Assembly: GCF_000175575.2 (NCBI RefSeq) | Contig: NZ_CP005986.1 | Span: 441,549-505,548 of the forward strand | From: Acidithiobacillus caldus ATCC 51756 | GTDB lineage: Bacteria; Pseudomonadota; Gammaproteobacteria; Acidithiobacillales; Acidithiobacillaceae | Length of the DNA: 64,000 nucleotides | Direction of reading: 5' to 3' | Shown: in pieces, positions 13,372-27,391 of the stretch | How positions within the stretch are numbered: the first letter of the stretch is position 1 | Layout: the number at the start of each line of letters is the position of its first letter | Made by a program: the position numbers and the translations under genes | Notes under the pieces: generated by a model | Told to the model about the DNA's origin: nothing | The model's input: only the letters and a program-made list of their open reading frames with translations | Database searches by the model: none

Positions 13372-13448
13372 GCGCGGTTAGCTCAGCTGGATAGAGCGTT
13401 GGCCTCCGAAGCCAAAGGCCAGAGGTTCGAATCCTCTACCGCGCACCA
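13372..13448 (+). tRNA. tRNA-Arg (anticodon CCG), island attachment site
   Basis: 77-nt cloverleaf with encoded CCA. The acceptor stem GCGCGGT/ACCGCGC is perfect. The D-arm is GCTC/GAGC, the anticodon arm is TTGGC-CTCCGAA-GCCAA (anticodon CCG), and the T-arm is AGAGG-TTCGAAT-CCTCT. A terminator hairpin follows (13457-13488) ending in TTTTTCTTT. The tRNA is intact and is followed 111 bp later by an integrase, so it is the reconstituted copy at an integration site. Its 3' part and terminator recur at 27195-27307. Confidence 0.97.
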
Positions 13449-13559: not shown

Positions 13560-14633
13560 ATGGCAACCATCTCTCCACGGTACGATGACCAAAATATCCG
13601 CATCGGCTGGCAGGTGCGCATCCGCAAGCGGGGCTTTCCGCAGCAGGTCAGAACATTTCGCACCAAGGCTGAAGCCGAAGCCTGGGCACGGTCCATCGAG
13701 GCGGAGATGGATCGGGGCGTCTGGCAAGACCGCAGCGAAGCCGAGCGGACCACGGTAGGCGAGCTGCTGGATCGGTACGCAAGGGAAGTCTTGGCAGACA
13801 AGAAACACTGCACACCGGAGCTTTCCCGCCTCAAGACGCTCGATGATGCTTTTGGCCGCGTTGCTGTGGCCCGCCTCACGTCGAGCGCCATCGCTTCCTT
13901 TAGAGATAAGAGGCTCCGAGATGAGGGACGAGGCGGAAAGCCAGTCTCAGGTCAGACCGTCAAACACGAGATTGGGCTGCTGCATCGTGTGCTGAAGAAG
14001 GCAGAACGTGAATGGGGTATTGCGCTACCCATGGGCTTGCCGACAGAGAAGGTGCAGGCTCCAAAACTCCCCCAGGGCCGGGACCGTCGGTTACAGGGTA
14101 ACGAGGAAGAAAGGCTCTTGGCCGCGTGCGCCAGGGCGCGCAATCCCTGGCTCCTGCCGTTGACCCGGTTCGCCATAGAAACCGCCATGCGGGCCGGTGA
14201 GATGCTGGAAACGAAGGGCACGGCAGACCCAGAGACCGGCGAGCGGCCCATCCAGACAACCGGCCTGCTCTGGAAGCATGTTGACCTCAAAAAGCGCACG
14301 GCCACGCTTCCCATGACGAAGAACGGCACGGCGCGGGTGGTGCCCCTGTCGAGTGTGGCGGTGGAGATTCTGCGAGGCCTGCCGCGAAGCATGGATGGTC
14401 GGGTGTTCGGGACGACCTACGAAGCCATCCACTTGAGCTTCACGAGGGCCTGCAAGCGCGCTGGCATCGAAGACTTGCGGTTCCACGACCTGCGGCATGA
14501 GGCCACGTCCAGGCTCTTTGAAAGGGACCTCAATCCCATGCAGGTAGCCGCCATCACGGGCCACAAGACTTTGCAGATGTTGAAGCGGTACACGCACCTC
14601 CGAGCCGAGGACTTGGCGAGGCTTCTAGGATGA
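13560..14633 (+). CDS. Tyrosine-type site-specific integrase
   Basis: 357-residue phage-type integrase that probably inserted the island at tRNA-Arg. It has an N-terminal arm-binding region (about 1-60, RIGWQVRIRKRGFPQQVRTFRTKAEAEAWA), a SAM-like core-binding domain (about 65-160), and a catalytic domain. The catalytic residues are visible: Arg in ETAMRAGEM, Lys in PMTKNGTARVVPL, HDLRHEATSRLF, and GHKTLQMLKRYTH with the Tyr nucleophile. An unusual stretch of about 25 residues (ETKGTADPETGERPIQTT) sits between the catalytic Arg and the beta strands. The gene looks intact and points away from the tRNA, as expected. Confidence 0.93.
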   Translation: MATISPRYDDQNIRIGWQVRIRKRGFPQQVRTFRTKAEAEAWARSIEAEMDRGVWQDRSEAERTTVGELLDRYAREVLADKKHCTPELSRLKTLDDAFGRVAVARLTSSAIASFRDKRLRDEGRGGKPVSGQTVKHEIGLLHRVLKKAEREWGIALPMGLPTEKVQAPKLPQGRDRRLQGNEEERLLAACARARNPWLLPLTRFAIETAMRAGEMLETKGTADPETGERPIQTTGLLWKHVDLKKRTATLPMTKNGTARVVPLSSVAVEILRGLPRSMDGRVFGTTYEAIHLSFTRACKRAGIEDLRFHDLRHEATSRLFERDLNPMQVAAITGHKTLQMLKRYTHLRAEDLARLLG

Positions 14634-14728: not shown

Positions 14729-14932
14729 TCAGGGCAGGGTATCCGCCAGCCTCCTTATGGCGGGATGCGGAACTGGCGTGTCCTTGGCAGAGGAGGTGCC
14801 ATTGAACAATCCTCCCTCCTCGACGGCATAGCCAGGAGATTGATGGCCGAGCCAACCAGTCAGAGCGAAGGCCAGGATCAGCAACCCTGGCCATTGGCAC
14901 TTTTTGAGCAGTGTTGCATTCGTTGCCTGCAC
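14729..14932 (-). CDS. Small signal-peptide-bearing protein behind a LexA operator
   Basis: 67-residue protein from a GTG start at 14932 with GGGGG 9-13 nt upstream; a TTG start at 14947 would give 72. Residues 11-34 form a typical signal peptide or single transmembrane helix (KKCQWPGLLILAFALTGWLG) with a possible cleavage after SPGYA. The remaining 30 residues are polar. I do not recognise a family. The start is 21 bp from a near-consensus SOS box, so expression is probably DNA-damage induced. Convergent with the integrase gene. It could be a damage-induced membrane peptide, by analogy with TisB-type toxins, but there is no sequence similarity to claim. Confidence 0.45.
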   Translation of the reverse strand: MQATNATLLKKCQWPGLLILAFALTGWLGHQSPGYAVEEGGLFNGTSSAKDTPVPHPAIRRLADTLP

Positions 14933-14953
14933 GGTGAAAGCCCCCAAGACGAT

Positions 14954-14973
14954 TACTGTACATTTATACAGTA
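14954..14973 (-). promoter_or_regulatory. LexA (SOS) box
   Basis: TACTG-N10-CAGTA with the inner CTGT-N8-ACAG fully conserved and an AT-rich spacer, matching the gammaproteobacterial SOS box consensus. It forms part of a larger palindrome (14952-14975, 9-bp arms). It lies directly upstream of the small minus-strand gene at 14729-14932 and 28 bp from the left end of the IS5-like element. Confidence 0.75.
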
Positions 14974-15001
14974 ATAGTTCGGCCCAGCGCAGTTCCCATT
15001 A

Positions 15002-16262
15002 GGAAGCTGCTGAAAAAGTCGGTGGTATACTGGGCAAAATGGTGCAGCGGGGGGTGGAAAGATGCGTGGAGCCAAGGTAGAGACTCAAGGGTTATTCAGC
15101 TACGTTTCCCCGGAGCAACGGGTGCCCCAGGACCATCCGCTGAGAGCGATCCGGGCTATCGTGGAGCGGTCCCTAGCGGAGATGGATAGCCACTTCAGCA
15201 CGATGTACTCGAGCTACGGTCGCCCCTCCATTCCCCCGGAGTTTCTCCTGCGCGCACTGCTCCTGCAGGTCTTCTACAGCATCCGCTCGGAACGGCAGCT
15301 GATGGAGCAACTCAACTACAACCTGCTGTTCCGCTGGTTTGTCGGTTTGGGAATGGACGACGAGGTCTGGGTGCCCACGGTCTTTACTAAGAATCGCGAT
15401 CGGTTGCTGGATCACGGGACGGTACGGGAATTCTTCCGATCCGTACTGGAACAGGCTCGCGGCCAGAATCTGCTCTCCGAAGAGCATTTCTCCGTCGATG
15501 GTACGCTGTTGGAGGCCTGGGCCTCGCAGAAATCCTTTCAGCCCAAGGATCCCGAAGATCGTAGCGGTGATGGCTCCGACTTCCGGGGCCAGGAGCGCAG
15601 CAATGAGACCCACGCATCGGTGACGGACCCCGATGCCCGGCTGTACAAGAAGGCTCCCGGAGAGGCGTCCCGTCTGGCCTACCTGGGTCATGTGCTCATG
15701 GATAATCGGCATGGATTGATTGCCGGGGAACAGGTGACCACCGCCGATGGCACGGCAGAAGTGGATGCCGCTACCCAATTGGTGGATGATCTGGGCGGGA
15801 ACCAGCGCATCACCCTCGGTGCCGACAAGGGCTATGACCGTCACGGCTTTGTTCAGGATCTCCGGGACCGGAATGTGACCCCTCATGTAGCCCGCAAGCG
15901 GAAAGGCTCGGCCATCGATGCCCGGACTACTCGCCACCGGGGCTATGCCATGAGCATCCACGTCCGGCGGCGGATAGAATCCATCTTCGGCTGGATGAAG
16001 ACTGTGGGAGGGATGCGGAAAACCCGATTCCGTGGTTTGGAACGGGTCGGTCTGCACTTCTCCTTGGCGGCCACCGCGTACAACCTCGTGCGGATGGCGC
16101 GACTGGCAGTGGCTTGATGGGATTCGTGCGTCCGGAATCCGTCCAAGGGCTACCAAAAGCTCAGAAAAACAACAAAACAGCTGCGCCCGCGCCTGTTTCC
16201 CGGGGTTTTGTGACCGAATATCCCAATCAAAAGAGATTTTTCAATATTTTTTCAGCGACCTC
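15002..16262 (+). mobile_element. IS5-like insertion sequence with 3-bp target duplication
   Basis: 1,261 bp. Imperfect terminal inverted repeats share GCTGAAAAA (left 15002-15017 begins GGAAGCTGCTGAAAAA; right end read inward begins GAGGTCGCTGAAAAA). Both sides are flanked by TTA (14999-15001 and 16263-16265). It carries one transposase gene. The insertion sits between the SOS box and the end of the DUF2130 gene. Confidence 0.75.
15062..16117 (+). CDS. IS5-family transposase
   Basis: 351-residue DDE transposase with an N-terminal DUF772-type domain (HPLRAIRAIVERSLAEMDSHF... GRPSIPPEFLLRALLLQVFYSIRSERQLMEQL). The catalytic core has FSVDGTLLEAWAS (first Asp), LGADKGYDRHGFV (second Asp) and RRRIESIFGWMKTVGGMRKTR (Glu). 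The frame is intact and the element may still be active. ATG start at 15062 follows GGGGTGGAAAG. Group within IS5 not determined; the TNA-type target duplication would suit the IS1031 group. Confidence 0.92.
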   Translation: MRGAKVETQGLFSYVSPEQRVPQDHPLRAIRAIVERSLAEMDSHFSTMYSSYGRPSIPPEFLLRALLLQVFYSIRSERQLMEQLNYNLLFRWFVGLGMDDEVWVPTVFTKNRDRLLDHGTVREFFRSVLEQARGQNLLSEEHFSVDGTLLEAWASQKSFQPKDPEDRSGDGSDFRGQERSNETHASVTDPDARLYKKAPGEASRLAYLGHVLMDNRHGLIAGEQVTTADGTAEVDAATQLVDDLGGNQRITLGADKGYDRHGFVQDLRDRNVTPHVARKRKGSAIDARTTRHRGYAMSIHVRRRIESIFGWMKTVGGMRKTRFRGLERVGLHFSLAATAYNLVRMARLAVA

Positions 16263-16265
16263 TTA

Positions 16266-16279
16266 GAGGGGCGCCCCTC
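16266..16279 (-). terminator. GC palindrome downstream of the DUF2130 gene
   Basis: GAGGGGCGCCCCTC is a perfect 14-bp palindrome 14 bp beyond the DUF2130 stop codon, at the 3' end of the defence-like operon. It has no loop of its own and no T-run, so a role in termination is tentative. Confidence 0.3.
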
Positions 16280-16293
16280 CCCTGTTTGCTGAC

Positions 16294-17586
16294 CTATTTC
16301 GACAGCTCATCAAACTTTGCCTTCATGGTTGGGTTGCCTCGGGTTAGGCGCTTGATGGTGACGTTCTGGGCCTTGTCGTTGGCCAGACGTAGGTTGCGAT
16401 CGGCACCCAGGAGGGCGTCCTTGGTTTTCTGCAGGTGATCTATCGACTTGTCGATCTCGTCGATGGCGGTTTGGAATCGCCGGGCCGCCAGATCGTAGTT
16501 TTTGGCAAAAGCGTCCTTGAAGCCTTCCAGTTCGGCCTCGAAATTGGTGATGTCGATGTTCTGCGCCTTGACCAGGGCCAGCTCCTGCCGATAGCGCAGG
16601 CTGTTCAGCGCCGCATTGCGCAACAGGGTGATCATGGGGAGGAAGAACTGCGGCCGGATGACGTACATCTTGGGGTATCGGTGCGAGACGTCGACGATGC
16701 CGGTGTTGTACAGCTCGTTATCGGATTCCAGGAGTGAGACCAGCACCGCGTACTCGCAGCCCTTCTCGGTGCGGTCCTTGTCGAGCTCCTTGAAGAAATC
16801 CTCGTTGCGCTTCTTCGTGGTCGTGGTGTCTGCCTCGTTCTTCATCTCAAACATGATGGACACGATCTCGATGGGATTGGCGGGATCGGTGTGGTCGAAG
16901 TCACGGAAGATATAATCCCCTTTGCTCCCGGTGCGGGCGTCGGTGTCCTTCTCGAAGTAGGCATTGGGGAAGGCGGTAGCGCGAATTTGGTTGAAAGTGA
17001 CCTCACAGTGCTGTTCCAGCGTCTCACCCAGCATCTTGGTGGAGAGGCGCGCCTTCATATCGCGTAGTCGCTCGATGGCCTCGTCGCGGTCGCGGATCTG
17101 GGTTTGGTATTTTTCGATCAAGGCTTTTTCAGCCAACTCTTTTTCCAGCGCGGCTCGGTCCAAGGCTGCGCGTAGGGCATCGCGTTCCTGCTGCACGCTC
17201 TCGATAGACTCCCGGATGGCCAGGGCCTTGCTCGTGTCGTGGGCCTGGACCTGGGCCTGGAGCTTCTGGATCTCGGCGTCCTTTTCGGCAGCGACCCGCT
17301 GGAGCTGGTTCAAGAGCTTGGCCTCGGACAGTTCGGATAGCGAAGCAATCTGGGCCTGGAGCCTCGCGATTACTGCCTCTTTATCGGCCACCGACTGTTG
17401 GCGCTCCTGCTCCCATTGCGCGCGGGCGAGCTGCAAGGCCGTCTCCTTGTCGTGCTCCGCCAGTGCTAGACGCTCGGTCACTTGCTTGTTGAACTCCTTA
17501 TCGCGGACCTGTCGCAGTATTTCGGCATAGCCGGATTCATCGACTTGAAAGGCCGTATGGCAATGAGGGCAGACGATTTCTGGCAT
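16294..17586 (-). CDS. DUF2130 protein with PD-(D/E)XK-like nuclease motif
   Basis: 430 residues. An N-terminal zinc-ribbon half (CPHC, residues 6-9) is followed by a long charged coiled coil (about 25-185, rich in E, K, Q and A). The C-terminal DUF2130 domain has [29 protein letters not shown], where Asp224 and Glu247-x-Lys249 fit a D...ExK nuclease core. An upstream extension is dropped: ATG at 17586 has GGAG 8-11 nt before it and starts [14 protein letters not shown]. It lies 29 bp after the GIY-YIG gene and is probably the last gene of that operon. The coiled coil plus nuclease fold suggests DNA binding; the substrate is unknown. Confidence 0.75.
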
Positions 17587-17615
17587 GGTATGGCTCCTTG
17601 GCGAACGCGGACTTT

Positions 17616-18800
17616 CTAAGGAAGGGGCTTCAGGCTGGCCGACTCCCGATCGTAGATATAGTGGGTGATACTGCCATCTTTGATGCGCTCCACCGCTTCG
17701 TCGATAACGAATAAGGGCACCAAAAACCATTCCTCAGGTTGTACCGGATGACCGAAGCGGTCATGGATGGTGATATCGAGGCGCGCGGGCGCGAACAGCC
17801 GGTGCATGAGGTTTTCCAGACGGGTCCGCTGGATGCCCGCGAGTTTATACGTGGCCACCACCTCGACCTTGGCAAGGAGATAGGTGGCCTCGTGTTCGGC
17901 GTTGGCGATGCGGCTTTCCACCTTGCCTCGCGTTACGCCGATCTTGTGGATGAGCTCGCGGTGGGCGGCGATATAGGGATCGCTCGACAGCGACCGCAAG
18001 ACGTAGATGGTGCCGCTTTCCACGTCATCGGCATCGAACTCCCCGTCGAGGGCGAGCTGCCCGGTTTCGGGGGAAGCCAAGCGCCGGGCGGCAGGGTCAT
18101 TGTAGAAGGCCCGCTGCAGGGAGCGCAGTAATAGATTGCTCTCCGTTCCGTTGGAGTAGATAACCCGTAGACGGCGGTCGATCTCCCCAGCAGTGGTTTT
18201 CAGAGGCTCCCCTACCTCGGCGATATAGAGGGTGAGCCCGCCCAGAACAAAAAAATCCCCGACCTCAATACCCCGGCGTCCCGCCTCTATGGGCTGGGAC
18301 TGCCGCATACCCGTTTGGATATCGGTTTGTACCCGTTCGAAGAGCGGCCGAAAGGTCTCAAAGTCCTTGCACGGTGTGCGATCCGCGATTTCCTCTGCAG
18401 CGCGTTTCTCGGCACTGGCACGTACGTGGCGGAGCACCGTGATATCGTTGGTTTCCGTTACTTCCGACAGTTCCGCGGCCAGATCCTCGATATCTGGAGT
18501 TTCCACTGCCATCCGATCCTCGGGCGTGCCCGAGAGCAAGCCCTGATGATCCAGCGGCCGCAGCAGCTCCCGGCATTCTGGCAGGGCACGCAAGCGATCC
18601 AGGCGCACGGCATAGAGGCGTTCAAAGATATCCCGATCCTCCCCATGCTGCGGCACCCGCCCGTGGGTGGTGACAAAGCGTTGGATATCCTCAAATCCAG
18701 CAATGATGCGTTCTTCTCTGGCCGTCCTTCCTGCTTTTTTCTCGGGCGGCGCGAAGTCCGCGAGTTCTGCGGCTAGATCCTCGAGTTCACTGCTCGACAT
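17616..18800 (-). CDS. GIY-YIG nuclease family protein (T5orf172/MUG113-like)
   Basis: 394 residues. The C-terminal third has the GIY-YIG layout: GTIYVLRS (263-270), IHKIGVT (284-290), Arg297, and Glu329 in [11 protein letters not shown]. The N-terminal part has a helicase-associated-like segment [36 protein letters not shown] (36-71). EDLAAEL occurs twice (7-13 and 105-111), hinting at an internal duplication. The start [10 protein letters not shown] at 18800 overlaps the helicase reading frame (its restored stop is at 18787) by 14 bp. It is probably the nuclease subunit of the operon; activity has not been shown for this arrangement as far as I know. Confidence 0.78.
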
Positions 18801-20837
18801 AGCGGCCCTCTGCCCTGAAGCGCATGAACGCCGTGGCACCCTCGGCCATGCGACGCTCCCAAGGATCGTGAGCCGTGAGCGCCGGCACCCGTCCCCGCTC
18901 TTTTTTGAAAAGCACAGCGCGGACGGCCAGTTCCTTCGCTTCCTCCGGCGTCAAGCTCGTGCGTTTCGCCGTAATGGCCGCCGCTACCTGCTTCAGACTC
19001 TCCTCACTCATGGCCTTGGCAAGAATGGCATAGGCCTCCCCGAAGGGATTGATGCGATCGATGAGGTCGATGTCCAGCTCCCGTACGTCCATGGTAAAGC
19101 GGCGGACTCCGTGAAGTAGGGCGGTGTTGGCGTTTTCCTTTGCTCACTCTCGTTGGTGATCCGCTTGGCCTGCTGAGTCAGGTTCAATGCGGCAATGGCG
19201 TGCTGACGCACTGCCTCTTGATTTTGGGTGTCGAGTTCGGGGTATTTTTCCTTGATGATCCTGCCCAAACGCAGCTGGGTCAGTTCTTCCGGTACCAGGT
19301 CTTCATCAAAGAGCCCGCGCTCGATGCTGGGCTTGTCCTGCACAAAGGCAGCGATTACCTCGTTCAGATCCTCCCGGCAGATACGCGCCGCCTCCGGGCT
19401 CTTGGGCTCGGCCAGGCCCTTGATCTCGATCTGGTAGGTTCCCGTCTGTTCGTTGACTCCGACATTGCAGCGATCGGGAAGGTAGCCACCCTCGCCATAG
19501 TCAAAGCCCGGTGTTGGGCCATTGTCGGGGTGCTTGGCCTTGAACTCTAAGCGTGGGGCCAGGACCTGTTCCATCAGGAGGCTCGCGGCGATGGCCTTCA
19601 GGGTATCGTTGACGGCCTCGGTGACGGCGGCTTCTGCCGCATCCGGCTCAGCAATGAGGTTGGTGAAACGCGCCCGGGTCTTGCCCGGCGCGTCGCGGGT
19701 GGCGCGGCCAATGATCTGCACGATCTCGGTAAGACTTGCCCGGTAGCCTACGGTCAGAGCGTGTTCGCACCAGATCCAGTCGAAACCCTCCTTGGCCATC
19801 CCCAGCGCGATGATGATATCCACGTGGTCGCGATGGTGTTTCTGCGCCGGATCTTTGAGTGCGGCGGCGACCCGGTCGCGTTTGCTGGCATCGTCGTCCA
19901 CCAGATCGGCAATCCGTAAAATCCGCCCATCTGGGCGTCGGACCAGCTGGAAGCCCGTTGCGGGATCGACGCCTTGCCATTGCCCCAGGGCCTCGATGAT
20001 GTGCTCCACCTCGCGCATCTTGTCCTTGGTGCTCTCGCGGGAGTTGACGTTGGGAATGTGCAGGATGGTTTTTTCGTTGGGGTCGAGCACCTGGAGGATC
20101 TCTTCGACGTAGGCTCCACTGTAAAAGTAGTAGCCGATGTCGAGCTGCTTCAGGTAGACGTAGCCGTTCAGTTGCTCATAATAGGTGTAGGTAACGGACT
20201 CGAACTTGGCCTCGTCGATGGGTGCCAGAACGGACTCGGCGTCGCCCCGAAAGTAGGAACCAGTCATGGCGACGATGTGCGCCTTGCCCCGCTCGATGAG
20301 TGCGCCCAAATGGGTGCCGAGCTTGTTGTCGGGATTGGCGGAAACGTGGTGAAACTCATCGATGGCGATGAGACGGTCATCGAAGGCCTCGATCCCGTAG
20401 GCATCGACGGCAAAACGGAAAGTCGCGTGGGTGCAGACCAACACCCGATCCCCACTCTCCAAGAAGGCGCCAACGGCTTTGACCTTCCCGCCATTGTCGT
20501 TACCCGGCGCATTGCAGAGGTTCCATCTGGGTTCCACCCGCCAGTCCGCCCAAAAGCCGTGCTGAGACAGCGGTTCGTCATGGAAGCTCGCACCAATGGC
20601 CTTTTCCGGGACGACGACGATGGCCTGTTTGAGGCCCTGGTTCATGAGTTTGTCGAGGGCGATGAACATGAGCGCTCGGCTCTTGCCCGAGGCCGGTGGC
20701 GACTTGATGAGGAGATACTGCTCACCGCGCTTTTCATAGGCTCGCTCCTGCATGGGGCGCATCCCCAAGGCATTGGCCTTGGTGGAGCTGCCGTTTTGCG
20801 CGTAGGTAACGGAAACGGAAGGGACGCTTTGGGTCAT
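18787..20837 (-). pseudogene. DEAD/DEAH-type helicase with 3' frameshift
   Basis: SF2 helicase/translocase. Walker A is SPPASGKS (46-53), followed by IDEFHHV (159-165), VAMTGSYFRG, and motif VI QIIGRATR (374-381). The frame runs to a stop at 19008, but its last 40 or so residues (TPTPPYFTESAALPW...) look out of frame. From about 19135 the neighbouring frame reads KENANTALLHGVRRFTMDVRELDIDLIDRINPFGEAY and ends at 18787, overlapping the GIY-YIG start as an operon gene should. A one-base change near 19125-19145 therefore replaces the C-terminal 110 or so residues. ATG at 20837 is preferred over TTG at 20849. Both ATPase domains are intact. Confidence 0.75.
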
Positions 20838-20845
20838 GCTGCGCT

Positions 20846-21244
20846 TCAATCCTTCGGACCAGTCTTGGCCAAGAATGTCACATGGGGTAGCCCCTGAAAA
20901 TGCGCATCGCAGGTCAGCAGGGTCGCGCCGTGGTGGCGTGCCGTGGCGTAGACGATGGCGTCGGCAGTGGCCAGTTTGTATTCCCGGTGCATCTCAACGG
21001 CCAGGAGTGCGATGCGCGTATCCAGGGGCACGACGACGCACTTTTGCGAAAAGGCGATCACCTGATCGGCCTTATCCTCCCCCACCTCGCGCAGCAACCA
21101 CTTGGAGAGCTCGAATTGCACCAGGGTCGGCACGATCCAGCGCGACTTGTCCGGAAAGTGCTCAGCCACTTGTGCACCCAGCGTGGTACCGGCCAACCAC
21201 TCCACCCAGGCCGAGGTGTCCACCACACAGGGCGTAGCGGTCAT
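20846..21244 (-). CDS. PIN-domain toxin (VapC-like)
   Basis: 132-residue PIN-fold ribonuclease. Acidic residues expected for Mg binding are visible: Asp in VVDTSAWVEWL (residue 9), Glu in PTLVQFELSKW (about 45), Asp in TADAIVYATA (about 94) and Asp in LLTCDAHF (about 111). It overlaps the AbrB-type antitoxin gene upstream as TGATG and lies 8 bp before the preferred helicase start (or overlaps the TTG alternative). It is therefore physically part of the methyltransferase-helicase operon. Probable target is RNA, as in VapC toxins; the specific RNA is unknown. Confidence 0.85.
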   Translation of the reverse strand: MTATPCVVDTSAWVEWLAGTTLGAQVAEHFPDKSRWIVPTLVQFELSKWLLREVGEDKADQVIAFSQKCVVVPLDTRIALLAVEMHREYKLATADAIVYATARHHGATLLTCDAHFQGLPHVTFLAKTGPKD

Positions 21245-21456
21245 CAGACTCGATCCGTCCGGTCACGCAGCGCCTCAGTACGTGCCCCTTTTGCGATGCC
21301 AGCGAGCTCCGCCGCCTCGGGCACGGGCATCACCAGCACACCCTTGCCCTTGGGAATGAAAACGAACTCTTGCCCGGCCTGCCAGTGCTGCTCTTCGCGC
21401 ACCGCCTTGGGGATGGAGATCTGGTATTTGCTGGATAAGGTCGCCGTTGCCGTCAT
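21244..21456 (-). CDS. AbrB/MazE-type antitoxin (VapB-like)
   Basis: 70 residues with a SpoVT/AbrB swapped-hairpin DNA-binding domain at the N-terminus (ATLSSKYQISIPKAVREEQHWQAGQEFVFIPKGKGVLVMPV). A short C-terminal tail (AKGARTEALRDRTDRV) would wrap the PIN toxin. The ATG at 21456 has GGAG 11-14 nt upstream. It sits 72 bp downstream of the methyltransferase stop codon and overlaps the toxin gene by one base. Such antitoxins usually repress their own promoter, so this gap may hold an internal promoter. Confidence 0.85.
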   Translation of the reverse strand: MTATATLSSKYQISIPKAVREEQHWQAGQEFVFIPKGKGVLVMPVPEAAELAGIAKGARTEALRDRTDRV

Positions 21457-21528
21457 GGATCCTACTCCGTAAAAATCGATCAGCTGAAAGTAAGAATAGT
21501 CGATTCTGCCGTGACCTGCCAAAGCTCC

Positions 21529-24321
21529 TCAATGGTCCCTTACCTTCCTCCCGCGCTTACCCTTTACCGGCGTCGCCGCAGCGGTCATCTTGGTGTAGAG
21601 GTCGAAGAGCTTTTCCAGCCGCTCGGTGTCGTTCTTGAAGCGGCGGCCGATGTAGATGCGCTCCAGCACCTCGTCGTTGTGCTCGTGGGCGGCGCGCAGG
21701 TCGTCCGGCATGTTTGCGGGGTCGTAGAGCTCGGCGATGGTCGCCGGGAAATGATGCTCCCGCGCCAGCAGGATGTCCTCGGCGCAGCGGGTGAGATCGG
21801 CCTTGTTTTTCTCGGTCAGCGTCGGCACCGGGAAGGTATTCCAGCCAAGGGTGTTGGAGTAGGAAAAATCGGTTCGCATCCGGACACACACCGTGCCAAT
21901 CCAGACCCAGTGTAGGCGCGAGGCAATGAGCGCCATGTTCCAGAGCGGGGTATCGTAAAGAGCAAAGTTCCGGTCTCCGATGATGGTTTGTCCATCCTCT
22001 AGGCCGACGGGCAAATATTCGCGGTTTTCCGAACTTACACGGGCTACGACCAAGGAGTAATTCTTAGCAATCGACTGAATTTGGCGAAAGCGATGCGGGA
22101 AAGCAGCAGCAGGGCGCGTTTCTTCCGCCTTGCTTTCCGCACGCATCCTTGCGACCGCCTCAATGCGACGTTTCAGCTCGGGAATCTTTTCAGCATCGCC
22201 TCGCTCTGCATTTTCGATCCATATGCAATATCGTTGTTCCCCACGGATGAGCTCCTGAGCACCAAGAAATCGTTTGATGAAAAGATCCGCCTCCGGAAAT
22301 TCCCGCAAAACGGTATCCCGCTCATGAGGGGTCAGAAAGAGATTACCGCCGTCTGTTGGTTTGTTGCCCCATTCCATCAGGCCGCGTCCATCTGTCGGCC
22401 TCGGTATTGGCGAGACGATGACATCCCATCCTGGAACCAGGTAGGCGTTGATGAACTCGACCTGTTTCTCAATCGTCGAACCATCATCGGCCACTGAAAA
22501 CAGCCTCCGTGATTTGGCTGGGTGATTGCAAATAGCCACGATAATTACCGTAACACCCGCATTATGGCTGGCGAGATTCGCCCACTTGAACGAGGTGTGG
22601 GCAAACGCAATCTGATTGCCCGTGGCAAATATCAGCGGCCACAGAATCGGCACTTGCTGACCTTGGCAAATAGAGTTGGTGGACACGAACGCGGCAGTGG
22701 TTGGTGTGTGTGTGCCGTAATCAGCGGCTTTCATGAACCAGCCGGCTACGTAATCCAGCGATTTCCAGGTTTTGCAGCGGTTGCCAAAAATCGCTTTGAG
22801 GTCGTCTTTTTGCTCGGCGGATTGCCAAGTACTGCCCAGATAAGGCGGGTTGCCACAGATGTACGTCTCACCGCCTTCGTTCTCGAAGTCGATCTCTGCC
22901 TGATCGAGCGGAGAACCGAACAAGTCGTCGGCCTGCACTTTCACGCCGGTGCCGGTTGGTGGGCAAATGCTCAACCAGTCGATTCGCAGCGCATTGCCGC
23001 AGGTAATCCAGTTCTCTTGGCGCAGGGGGAGAAATTCGGCTAGAGCCAGCTTCGGCCCCCGGTGCAGCACGTCGCATTGATACTCGGCAATGACCAGCGC
23101 CAGGCGGGCTATCTCTGCCGGAAAGTCACGCAGCTCTATGCCCCGGAAGTTCGTCAGGGGAATATCCGAGCGGCGATCTGATTCTCCCCGTCGTTGGTTG
23201 ATCTCCGCCTCGATGGCGCGCATTTCTTTGTAGGCAATCACCAGGAAATTGCCGGAACCACAGGCAGGGTCAAACACCCGGATCCTTGCCATGCGCTTGC
23301 GCAGATTGAGCAACAGGCGGGGGTTGTCTCCCGCCTAGACAAGTTTCGTCCGCAGGTCATCCAGGAAAAGCGGATTCAATACCTTGAGGATATTGGGAAC
23401 ACTGGTGTAGTGCATCCCCAGCTCGCCCCTTTCCTCGTCTTCGGCGATGGCCTGGATCATGGAACCGAAGATATCGGGGTTGATCTTGGTCCAGTCCAAA
23501 CCACCGACGTGCAGGAGATAGGATCGGTCGATCTTGCTGAACCTCGGCACATCCAAACTGCCCGAGAATAAACCGCCATTGACGTAGGGAAAGTCGCGAC
23601 TGGCAGCCCAGCGTGGAATATTGGCTGTAGCCCGGTGATCGATAGGGGTGTTCATGGACAGAAACAGTTCGCCGATCACCTCATGGACATTGGCGGCGTC
23701 TTGGGTACTCATCTGCTGAATCGTCTCAGTAAACCGGCCTTGGCCACCAAAGATACCCGTATCCTCGGCAAAGAAGCAGAAGATCAATCGTGCCATGAAA
23801 TGGTTCATGTCGTGGCGGCGCTCTGCCACCGCCCACTCGGGATTGTCCTTGAGTAGCTCCACATAGAGCCGATTCAGGCGCTTGGTGGCGCCGATGTCGA
23901 AGGCGTTCTCGCTGATCTGGCGGACGGTGCTGATGCCGGCCAGTGGCAGGAAGAAACCAAAATGGACCGGGAGGTCCGTGTAGGAGCAGGCGATGGTCTC
24001 GCCGCTCATGAGGTCTTCTGCTTCGATGTCCACGCCATCCGTGGCAAGGATGAACTTGGCCTTGGCCCTGGCCGTAGCAGGGCTCGCTCGTAGGGCCGTC
24101 ATTGCCGACGGGATTTGTCCATCTGCGCATGTAAGGATGTGGATATTGTTGATCTGGAGCACACCGCCCAGGTCGGATTTGTTGGTCGCGCCACTGCGCA
24201 GGCGCTGGATAGTCGTGGTTTTGTTGCCGAAGGCTTCCAGAAACGCATAAGGAAACTCGGCCGGGTCAAAAGGCTGCCCGGCTAGGTCAGTAATGGCTTG
24301 TTCGATTTCTACAGCATTCAT
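21529..24321 (-). pseudogene. MmeI/YeeA-like class I DNA methyltransferase split by an in-frame TAG
   Basis: 931 codons in one frame with one amber codon at 23337-23335. The N-terminal part (328 residues) has the MmeI-type region and helical spacer (DMNHFMARLIFCFFAEDTGIFG) and ends MHYTSVPNILKVLNPLFLDDLRTKLV. After TAG the frame continues AGDNPRLLLNLRKRMARIRVFDPACGSGNFL, with SAM motif I at about 350-359 and the N6-adenine catalytic NPPY at about 491-494. A target-recognition and helical C-terminus (about 740-931) follows. A single GAG-to-TAG change would explain it. First gene of the operon. Without readthrough, no methylase core is made unless translation restarts internally. Confidence 0.82.
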
Positions 24322-26904: not shown

Positions 26905-27391
26905 GGGTGGCTTGAAGTCCGCCATGCTTGGCGGCACCCCGCTACGTCTATACTAGTATCTTTCCGTGAGTTTGCAAGTAGGCTTCGTGGGTGTCACGCG
27001 GCTGGCGTGGGTGCTCTGAAAGTCATATTATACGGGCGATGCAGGCGAATCCGGCGCGACACTTGCGCGACAGCGCGGAAGTGACGAGAGATGATTTAGG
27101 ATGACGGGGAATGATAGTGTAGTGTTCAAATTATTGATATTGATGATGTCAGGAAAAGCGACGAATGGCGGGCATGGGGCAAAAATGGGCTACGTTGGAC
27201 TCCGAATCCAAAGTTCACTGGTTCGAATCCAGTATCGCGCACCAATTACATCAAGGCTCCGGGAGGCATCCTGGGGCTTTTTTCTTTGCCGATTTGATTT
27301 TCCGCGATTCTGCCGATAGTAGAGAAAACCTCGGAGGATTTTCCCGTGTCCGGGTCTCTGACGAGTCTTCTAGACGGCCTCGGTTTTCGTC
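26905..27391. other. Right end of the island, no gene
   Basis: 487 bp between the IS3 element and the DUF2256 gene. It contains a 10-bp palindrome ATACTAGTAT (26950-26959), the right-hand copy of the 18-bp CGCGACACTTGCGCGACA repeat (27055-27072), and the 3' tRNA-Arg remnant with its terminator (27195-27307). A 72-codon frame here overlaps the tRNA remnant and is not credible. Confidence 0.6.
27195..27307 (+). repeat. Right copy of the direct repeat: 3' tRNA-Arg(CCG) remnant (attR-like)
   Basis: The anticodon arm TTGGA-CTCCGAA-TCCAA (anticodon CCG), T-arm ACTGG-TTCGAAT-CCAGT and ATCGCGC-A-CCA are intact, followed by a good terminator hairpin (27251-27286, ending in a run of six T). Upstream there is no D-arm and no 5' acceptor strand complementary to ATCGCGC, so this is a truncated tRNA. 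Length and layout equal the left copy. Confidence 0.75.

Follow-up and report, generated by a model that had tools for sequence, protein, structure and literature searches.

The small gene at 14729-14932 on the minus strand of the window (the whole 64,000-nucleotide stretch of Acidithiobacillus caldus ATCC 51756 analysed here) very probably, at about 0.9, encodes a small, single-pass membrane protein under LexA repression, whose family is known to date from Acidithiobacillaceae alone, a reading drawn from sequence comparison. The gene starts with GTG, specifies 67 aa and belongs to clade A of a family marked by the motif WLGHQ, within which it is a copy without umuDC.

The predicted LexA box and the peptide behind it

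The predicted LexA (SOS) box occupies 14954-14973 (minus strand), 21 bp before the start codon. It reads TACTGTATAAATGTACAGTA on the coding strand and TACTGTACATTTATACAGTA on the forward strand, an exact TACTGT-N8-ACAGTA that agrees at 18/20 positions, and at 8/8 core letters, with the E. coli LexA consensus, which we take as the scoring standard for 20-letter boxes. The window contains TACTGTN8ACAGTA once and none of 100 dinucleotide shuffles contains it, and the near-consensus SOS box that the initial annotation had placed 21 bp before a GTG-started 67-codon gene is thereby confirmed. The shorter CTGTN8ACAG with at most one mismatch was found 12 times in the window against 17.7 expected, no commoner than chance, and was discarded as uninformative; its exact form occurred 17 times in the whole genome (2.99 Mb) versus 13 in the control, hardly above it. 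The weight therefore rests on the full 20-mer, since the short form lay barely above, or below, its control.

A -10-like TATAAA (14963-14968, minus strand) lies inside the predicted box, and a -35-like hexamer, CTGCGC (14987-14992, minus strand; read from the sequence), stands 18 bp before it. No promoter at the peptide gene was called by a simple sigma-70 scan. In a comparison of 15 promoters, the first three bases of the -35 were TTG in 14 and CTG in the window copy alone, whose -35 looks weakened relative to the others. Directly before lexA in the same genome, a box of the same kind can be observed, AACTGTATAAATTTACAGCA, and the neighbouring protein carries both LexA domains, with an NCBIfam score of 218.8 bits (cut-off 110.95). 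Since a similar box precedes a lexA with full LexA domains, the box type suits the organism's own LexA, which we infer to bind the box in the window. Near-consensus AT-rich boxes (at most two mismatches) stand at four places in this genome, namely the window, the copy on the 172-kb replicon, lexA and a place termed L106; no SOS gene was recognised near the weak box places L106 and L109.

GTG was preferred as start to a TTG five codons upstream because it lines up with the ATG of the relatives, and a GGGGG tract is a possible ribosome-binding site. The structure model of the peptide, of low confidence (mean pLDDT 57) and too weak for a fold search, predicts a single membrane helix at residues 13-28 (14849-14896, minus strand). 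The W-L-G-H-Q motif spans residues 27-31 (14840-14854, minus strand) in the 18-member alignment, where W27, L28 and G29 are invariant in 18/18 members, H30 is nearly so and Q31 is replaced by P in two. The aligned members share one layout: a short N-terminus, one hydrophobic stretch, WLGH, mostly Q, a Tyr and then a variable polar tail. In clade A the net charge before the helix is +1 to +5, favouring an N-inside topology; in clade B it is 0 to +1, and the topology is not decided by charges. Furthermore, G21, G25 and G29 of the clade B helix are invariant (8/8), forming a putative small-xxx-small face that would be suited to helix contacts. The initial annotation had proposed a secreted or membrane peptide with a signal-peptide-like helix. 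The membrane part of that proposal stands, with one predicted helix; a cleaved signal peptide was rejected as unlikely, because clade A members have G, R, Q, P or A at -3 of the possible YA cleavage site.

A separate resemblance was seen in a phylum genome, where the anchor of the protein at L168:1426-2220 reads IGLWLGHQVDKY, strikingly like the IGLWLGHQDKGY of clade B, and has no LexA box. That protein presumably resembles DjlA, with the hydrophobic stretch as its membrane anchor, and the likeness is possibly a convergent helix-packing motif.

Members, boxes and gene neighbourhoods of the family

No relative of the peptide had been seen at the outset, a statement that proved wrong: the organism's own genome (G000; replicons of 2,777,717 and 171,972 bases and two others that together make 37,356) carries a second copy on the 172-kb replicon, a megaplasmid, and members occur in 15/17 genomes of the sister genus g2. 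The first protein search, in 40 genomes, returned this second copy at 55% identity, four relatives at E < 1e-8 and a fifth at 0.001. A profile (A1) was built from the first alignment and a wider one (A2) from 18 members, and with A2 the second clade was reached. In 29 genomes of the family, the own genome included, A2 gave 26 strong places at E < 1e-10, the members being mostly 67-88 aa with one predicted helix followed by the WLGHQ motif. Clade A accounts for 11 places in 7/29 genomes (the window and the 172-kb replicon in G000, two each in G002, G016 and G023, and one each in G018, G020 and G022), one of the G002 copies having a frame of 48 aa. Clade B accounts for 15 places, one apiece in 15 of the 17 g2 genomes, six of which also carry clade A; the frame in G394 is just 45 aa, and profile A2 found no clade B member in G012 and G393 (81% complete). 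By the same profile the family is absent from the ten g3 and g4 genomes and from the other g1 genome. G007 gave one weak match, inside a 458-aa frame, and those of the weaker g2 places (E 0.003-0.1) that were read belong to another kind. In addition, four Acidithiobacillaceae loci (L148, L155, L156 and L158) hold frames of 49-87 aa whose hydrophobic stretch ends in W-I-G-H-Q-G-H and which lack a good LexA box; judging from this motif, they are perhaps a related family under other control.

The members tried had no match in Pfam, NCBIfam or PHROGs, and no SulA, LysM or DinI-like domain was found in the peptides by Pfam. Neither the tblastn search of plasmids with the L002, window and clade B peptides nor the phage search with the window peptide alone gave a match. 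Scans with one clade A motif (A1), clade B being left out, gave 8 pattern matches and 0 confirmed in viral contigs, and 30 pattern matches with 2 confirmed in genome contigs; the latter, in A. ferruginosus CF3 and A. sulfurivorans RW2, are taken as the same loci as those of G020 and G016. Among 369 genomes of the class, A1 gave nine non-own places at E <= 0.01, in frames of 197-773 aa or with an internal stop (the one in G025 was read). A2 gave 22 places at E <= 0.1 besides the two own ones. Eight of these were read, none with a box of at least 16/20; the remaining 14 fall in frames of 183-617 aa or contain stops. The best class match (L111, E 5.5e-5) proved to be the membrane anchor of a thioredoxin-like protein, again without a 16/20 box. 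Among 398 genomes of the phylum there were four other places, with no good box at the three read (L169 was left out). At most 15 (14) candidates per genome were scored in the class and phylum searches, so that absence outside Acidithiobacillaceae is not proven by them. No such peptide family was recognised in the open-access literature covered: the words umuD and umuC are absent from the A. caldus island paper (PMC3826726), umuD, umuC, SOS and LexA are absent from a 2025 plasmid paper, and the available text of a 2023 paper mentions umuD a single time, in an ICE.

The box is common to the family. All 26 strong members were examined, the G016 clade B copy last, and 25 have a box of at least 16/20 at 18-22 bp before the start, and none of 4534 control windows, each of 100 bp and taken from these loci, reaches that score; it should be noted that the 26 members are related, and the counts are not independent. 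Among the 25 members other than this G016 copy, all eight core letters are present in 15 and at least seven in 20. In clade B the box reaches 16/20 in 14 of 15 genomes, that of G394 being weak (13/20). Five clade A copies (two in G002, G016 on C159 and two in G023) carry a variant close to TACTATATAAATATATAGTA, with 6/8 core letters, which may alter the affinity for LexA. SOS control, as initially suggested, is supported by a box that is shared through the family and overlaps the -10-like TATAAA in the window.

Clade A is often the first gene of an overlapping peptide-umuD-umuC operon. At L002, SRAP (188.9 bits) is followed in turn by the box, the peptide gene, umuD (S24, 107.9 bits) and umuC (IMS, 133.2 bits). 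The UmuD scores 157 bits with NF007621 (cut-off 110) and is counted as UmuD; the UmuC, from a gene cut by the end of the locus, scores 377 bits with NF002955, below the cut-off of 431. L004 has the same order, with umuD starting 11 nt before the peptide gene ends; at L058 the two genes share 8 nt, provided that the first ATG is the start of umuD, which gives 8-11 nt in the three loci read. Among 17 umuD-type loci, a chosen part of the matches of which many remaining ones are LexA-like, the peptide lies ahead of umuD in 8 and is missing in 9; two of the latter (L060 and L062) keep a box of at least 16/20. At L060:1477-1948 (G021:C9), umuD stands directly behind the SOS box, its C-terminal end is altered, and it lies 313 bp beyond an integrase that shares 58% identity with that of the window; no peptide is found there. 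Other copies lack an intact operon: at L007 of G023 a SRAP-like frame lies ahead of the peptide and no umuD frame behind it, and at L046 and L082 of G016 the peptide copy is accompanied by a cut umuD. Clade B lies away from umuDC in 8/8 loci read, and in all eight a same-strand gene follows at 52-86 bp. In L052 (1727-1996) it encodes 89 aa, beginning LELDHK (LELDHKAREAIEDIINRREG...), for which no Pfam or NCBIfam match was found. Clade B and this gene may share a transcript, and its product is a possible partner.

The window copy on its island

The gene lies in a genomic island beside tRNA-Arg(CCG) (13372-13448, plus strand), identified as the attachment site from the sequence and from table 2 of PMC3826726. 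The tyrosine integrase of the island (13560-14633, plus strand; Phage_integrase, 88.7 bits) is convergent with the peptide gene across 95 bp, in which a simple scan found no terminator-like site. On the other side, an IS element (14995-16270, plus strand; transposase 15062-16117) starts within about 10 bp of the -35; its ends are approximate, set by a 74% inverted-repeat pair. A partial second copy of the tRNA-Arg end (27193-27244, plus strand; 52 of 77 bp, 83%) is likely the right end of the island. GIAcaTY.1 has been described as an island of 13.7 kb, located at tRNA-Arg(CCG), that carries an integrase together with VapC/Phd and MazF/MazE modules (PMC3826726). The tRNA-Arg(CCG), the integrase, the VapC-like and AbrB-like frames recognised by eye in the window and the tRNA-end repeat point to the same island, with one discrepancy, the repeat being 52 bp at 83% here versus 77 and 77 bp in that paper. 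The copy of GIAcaTY.1 in strain SM-1 is almost identical (PMC3826726), which suggests that A. caldus SM-1 carries the peptide gene too. The island cargo at 16294-24321 resembles a restriction or defence block: comparable plasmid DNA is annotated with a DUF2130 protein, a GIY-YIG nuclease, a DEAD helicase and a DNA methyltransferase, and the methyltransferase-like stretch in the window is split over adjacent frames (21529-23313 and 23335-24321).

Alignment of the window copy to the other members extends from the -35 as far as about codon 58; the tail beyond is not alignable and is shorter. Both umuDC and SRAP are missing, and the integrase end stands where umuD would follow. Poor conservation of the frame, named in the initial annotation as one of the observations that would count against its reading, was not seen. 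Relative to the copy on the megaplasmid, differences fall at 26.8 of 53.2 synonymous sites and at 41.2 of 147.8 nonsynonymous ones, giving a dN/dS of 0.42 (Fisher p 0.002; p 0.037 for the first 36 codons alone). A G023/G016 pair, neither copy of which is followed by intact umuDC, gave 0.36 (p 0.008), and two clade B pairs gave p values for constraint of 4e-7 and 7.5e-12; the Fisher tests comprised seven comparisons of the authors' choosing. The computable pairwise values run from 0.14 to 0.79 (0.79 for G023-G002; 0.44-0.77 for close clade B pairs except one at 0.14), as obtained with a simple Nei-Gojobori script that is saturated in many pairs and leaves unmasked the last clade A codons overlapping umuD. 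Constraint on the frame, as estimated from these sequences, is moderate. The value for the window and megaplasmid copies is shared by both branches, and the present-day working of the window copy is therefore not proven by it.

Possible functions of the family

The best guess at function, held tentatively and at somewhat less than an even chance, is that the peptide acts as an SOS checkpoint on cell division, in the manner of SosA, SidA or YneA. On DNA damage, RecA would be activated and LexA would leave the box on the -10; the peptide would then be made and inserted in the inner membrane, where the helix and the conserved WLGHQ segment would bind the septal cell-wall machinery at the level of FtsW/FtsI/FtsN. 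Division would be held until repair is done, as by SosA, YneA, ChiZ and SidA. With clade A copies ahead of umuDC, checkpoint and translesion polymerase would be made together, and the window copy, its umuDC lost, would act alone.

By description, the family resembles SosA and SidA in the SOS box, the short protein, one predicted helix, conservation just behind the helix and a variable tail. The LexA-like box is present at 25 of 26 strong members, and the single helix and small size are predicted. SosA, of 77 aa, has one TM at 10-30, conservation just after it and a less conserved tail (available text of PMC6851548), and appears by analogy to be the best parallel in length, single helix and conserved stretch. 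The peptides have no Pfam or NCBIfam match, and they differ from SosA and SidA in the place of clade A in a umuDC operon; moreover, the lexA region of the own genome (L090) holds ImuA and no peptide, so the SosA-type position next to lexA is not found. YneA and ChiZ are likewise SOS-controlled single-pass membrane proteins, from which the family differs in lacking a LysM domain. A 2026 study, in its available text, places YneA on FtsW and suggests the same for ChiZ, SosA and SidA from models not of high confidence (PMC13396833). PF03846 (SulA) scores above cut-off in 16/29 family genomes, including the window's and 5/17 of g2. That of the organism's own genome proved to be ImuA (206 bits, cut-off 150), with SulA models below cut-off, and no true SulA was recognised there. 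Since 15 of the 16 above-cut-off places lie at most 210 bp from a LexA-like match, the others are by position probably ImuA too, a reading tested in one genome. Because no SulA was recognised and the peptide is kept through a genus, an SOS-boxed membrane protein is a fair checkpoint candidate. Against it stand the lack of a Pfam, NCBIfam or PHROGs match, the moderate level of constraint, the clade B charges that leave the topology undecided, the above-cut-off PF03846 matches, on whose reading as ImuA the absence of SulA depends, the overlap of clade A with umuD, suggesting a link with Pol V rather than division, the possible co-transcription of clade B with the 89-aa gene, which could point to another role, and the weakened -35 and shorter, diverged tail of the window copy.

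The chief rival is a Pol V accessory, a membrane anchor or timer co-made with UmuC and UmuD that would keep the mutagenic polymerase membrane-bound up to the cleavage of UmuD. It is ranked first among the rivals because E. coli UmuC sits at the membrane before activation, being sequestered at the inner membrane until UmuD cleavage (available text of PMC4552617). The overlaps of 8-11 nt and the 8 of 17 umuD-type loci with the peptide ahead of umuD agree with such a role, which we nevertheless consider doubtful: 9 of the 17 loci do without the peptide, and clade B, the window copy and one G023 copy keep box and frame without umuDC, which speaks against it as the sole role. The impCAB operon likewise has a LexA box and a small first gene followed by umuD and umuC homologues. 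ImpC is regarded as soluble, in which it differs from the membrane-type family peptide, itself without a DinI match. The impCAB box on pTF2 lies at -21, and ImpC is DinI-like (available text of PMC12211044).

The window copy would have another standing if it were a non-functional remnant of a peptide-umuDC operon, truncated at the side of the integrase and also by the IS element. The loss of umuDC and SRAP, the changed -35 and the short tail, unalignable past about residue 58, fit such decay, and constraint from the shared past and from the partner copy feeds into the dN/dS of 0.42; this is rather unlikely, however, given a box with 8/8 core letters (18/20), an open frame, that same ratio (p 0.002) and an intact core motif. 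TisB is an amphipathic peptide of about 29 aa with an antisense RNA antitoxin, and the TisB-class parallel drawn initially fits poorly. Small size, a hydrophobic helix and the SOS box are shared with it, and other toxin-antitoxin genes lie on the island (PMC3826726, table 2). However, the proteins have 67 aa (window) to 88 aa, the helix is followed by a conserved motif and then a polar tail, and much of clade A, several copies at least, is joined to the umuDC repair operon; a toxin that depolarises the membrane and slows growth on SOS induction is distinctly unlikely. SOS control of island excision or of integrase expression, for example through antisense read-through into int, is very improbable. 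The peptide gene does point at the 3' end of int with no terminator-like site recognised between them, but the relatives read lie in a umuDC operon or a chromosomal locus and not beside such an integrase, and no link to an excisionase or repressor was seen. The earlier suggestion of excision timing thus finds no support.

A wider version of the checkpoint reading, itself unlikely, is that one peptide, encoded in overlap with umuD so that two arms of the SOS response share an operon, both stalls the divisome and times Pol V, with UmuC held at the membrane, and that it escaped as a solo gene onto the island and into a fixed chromosomal locus, where it replaced SulA as checkpoint. If the checkpoint reading is true, the missing SOS checkpoint of an extreme-acidophile family used in bioleaching would be named. 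Small membrane division inhibitors would have a further, independent origin in Acidithiobacillia, and such a peptide would be joined by gene overlap to an error-prone polymerase. With one clade that has umuDC and one that lacks it, whether the checkpoint role can be separated from the Pol V role could be tested directly.
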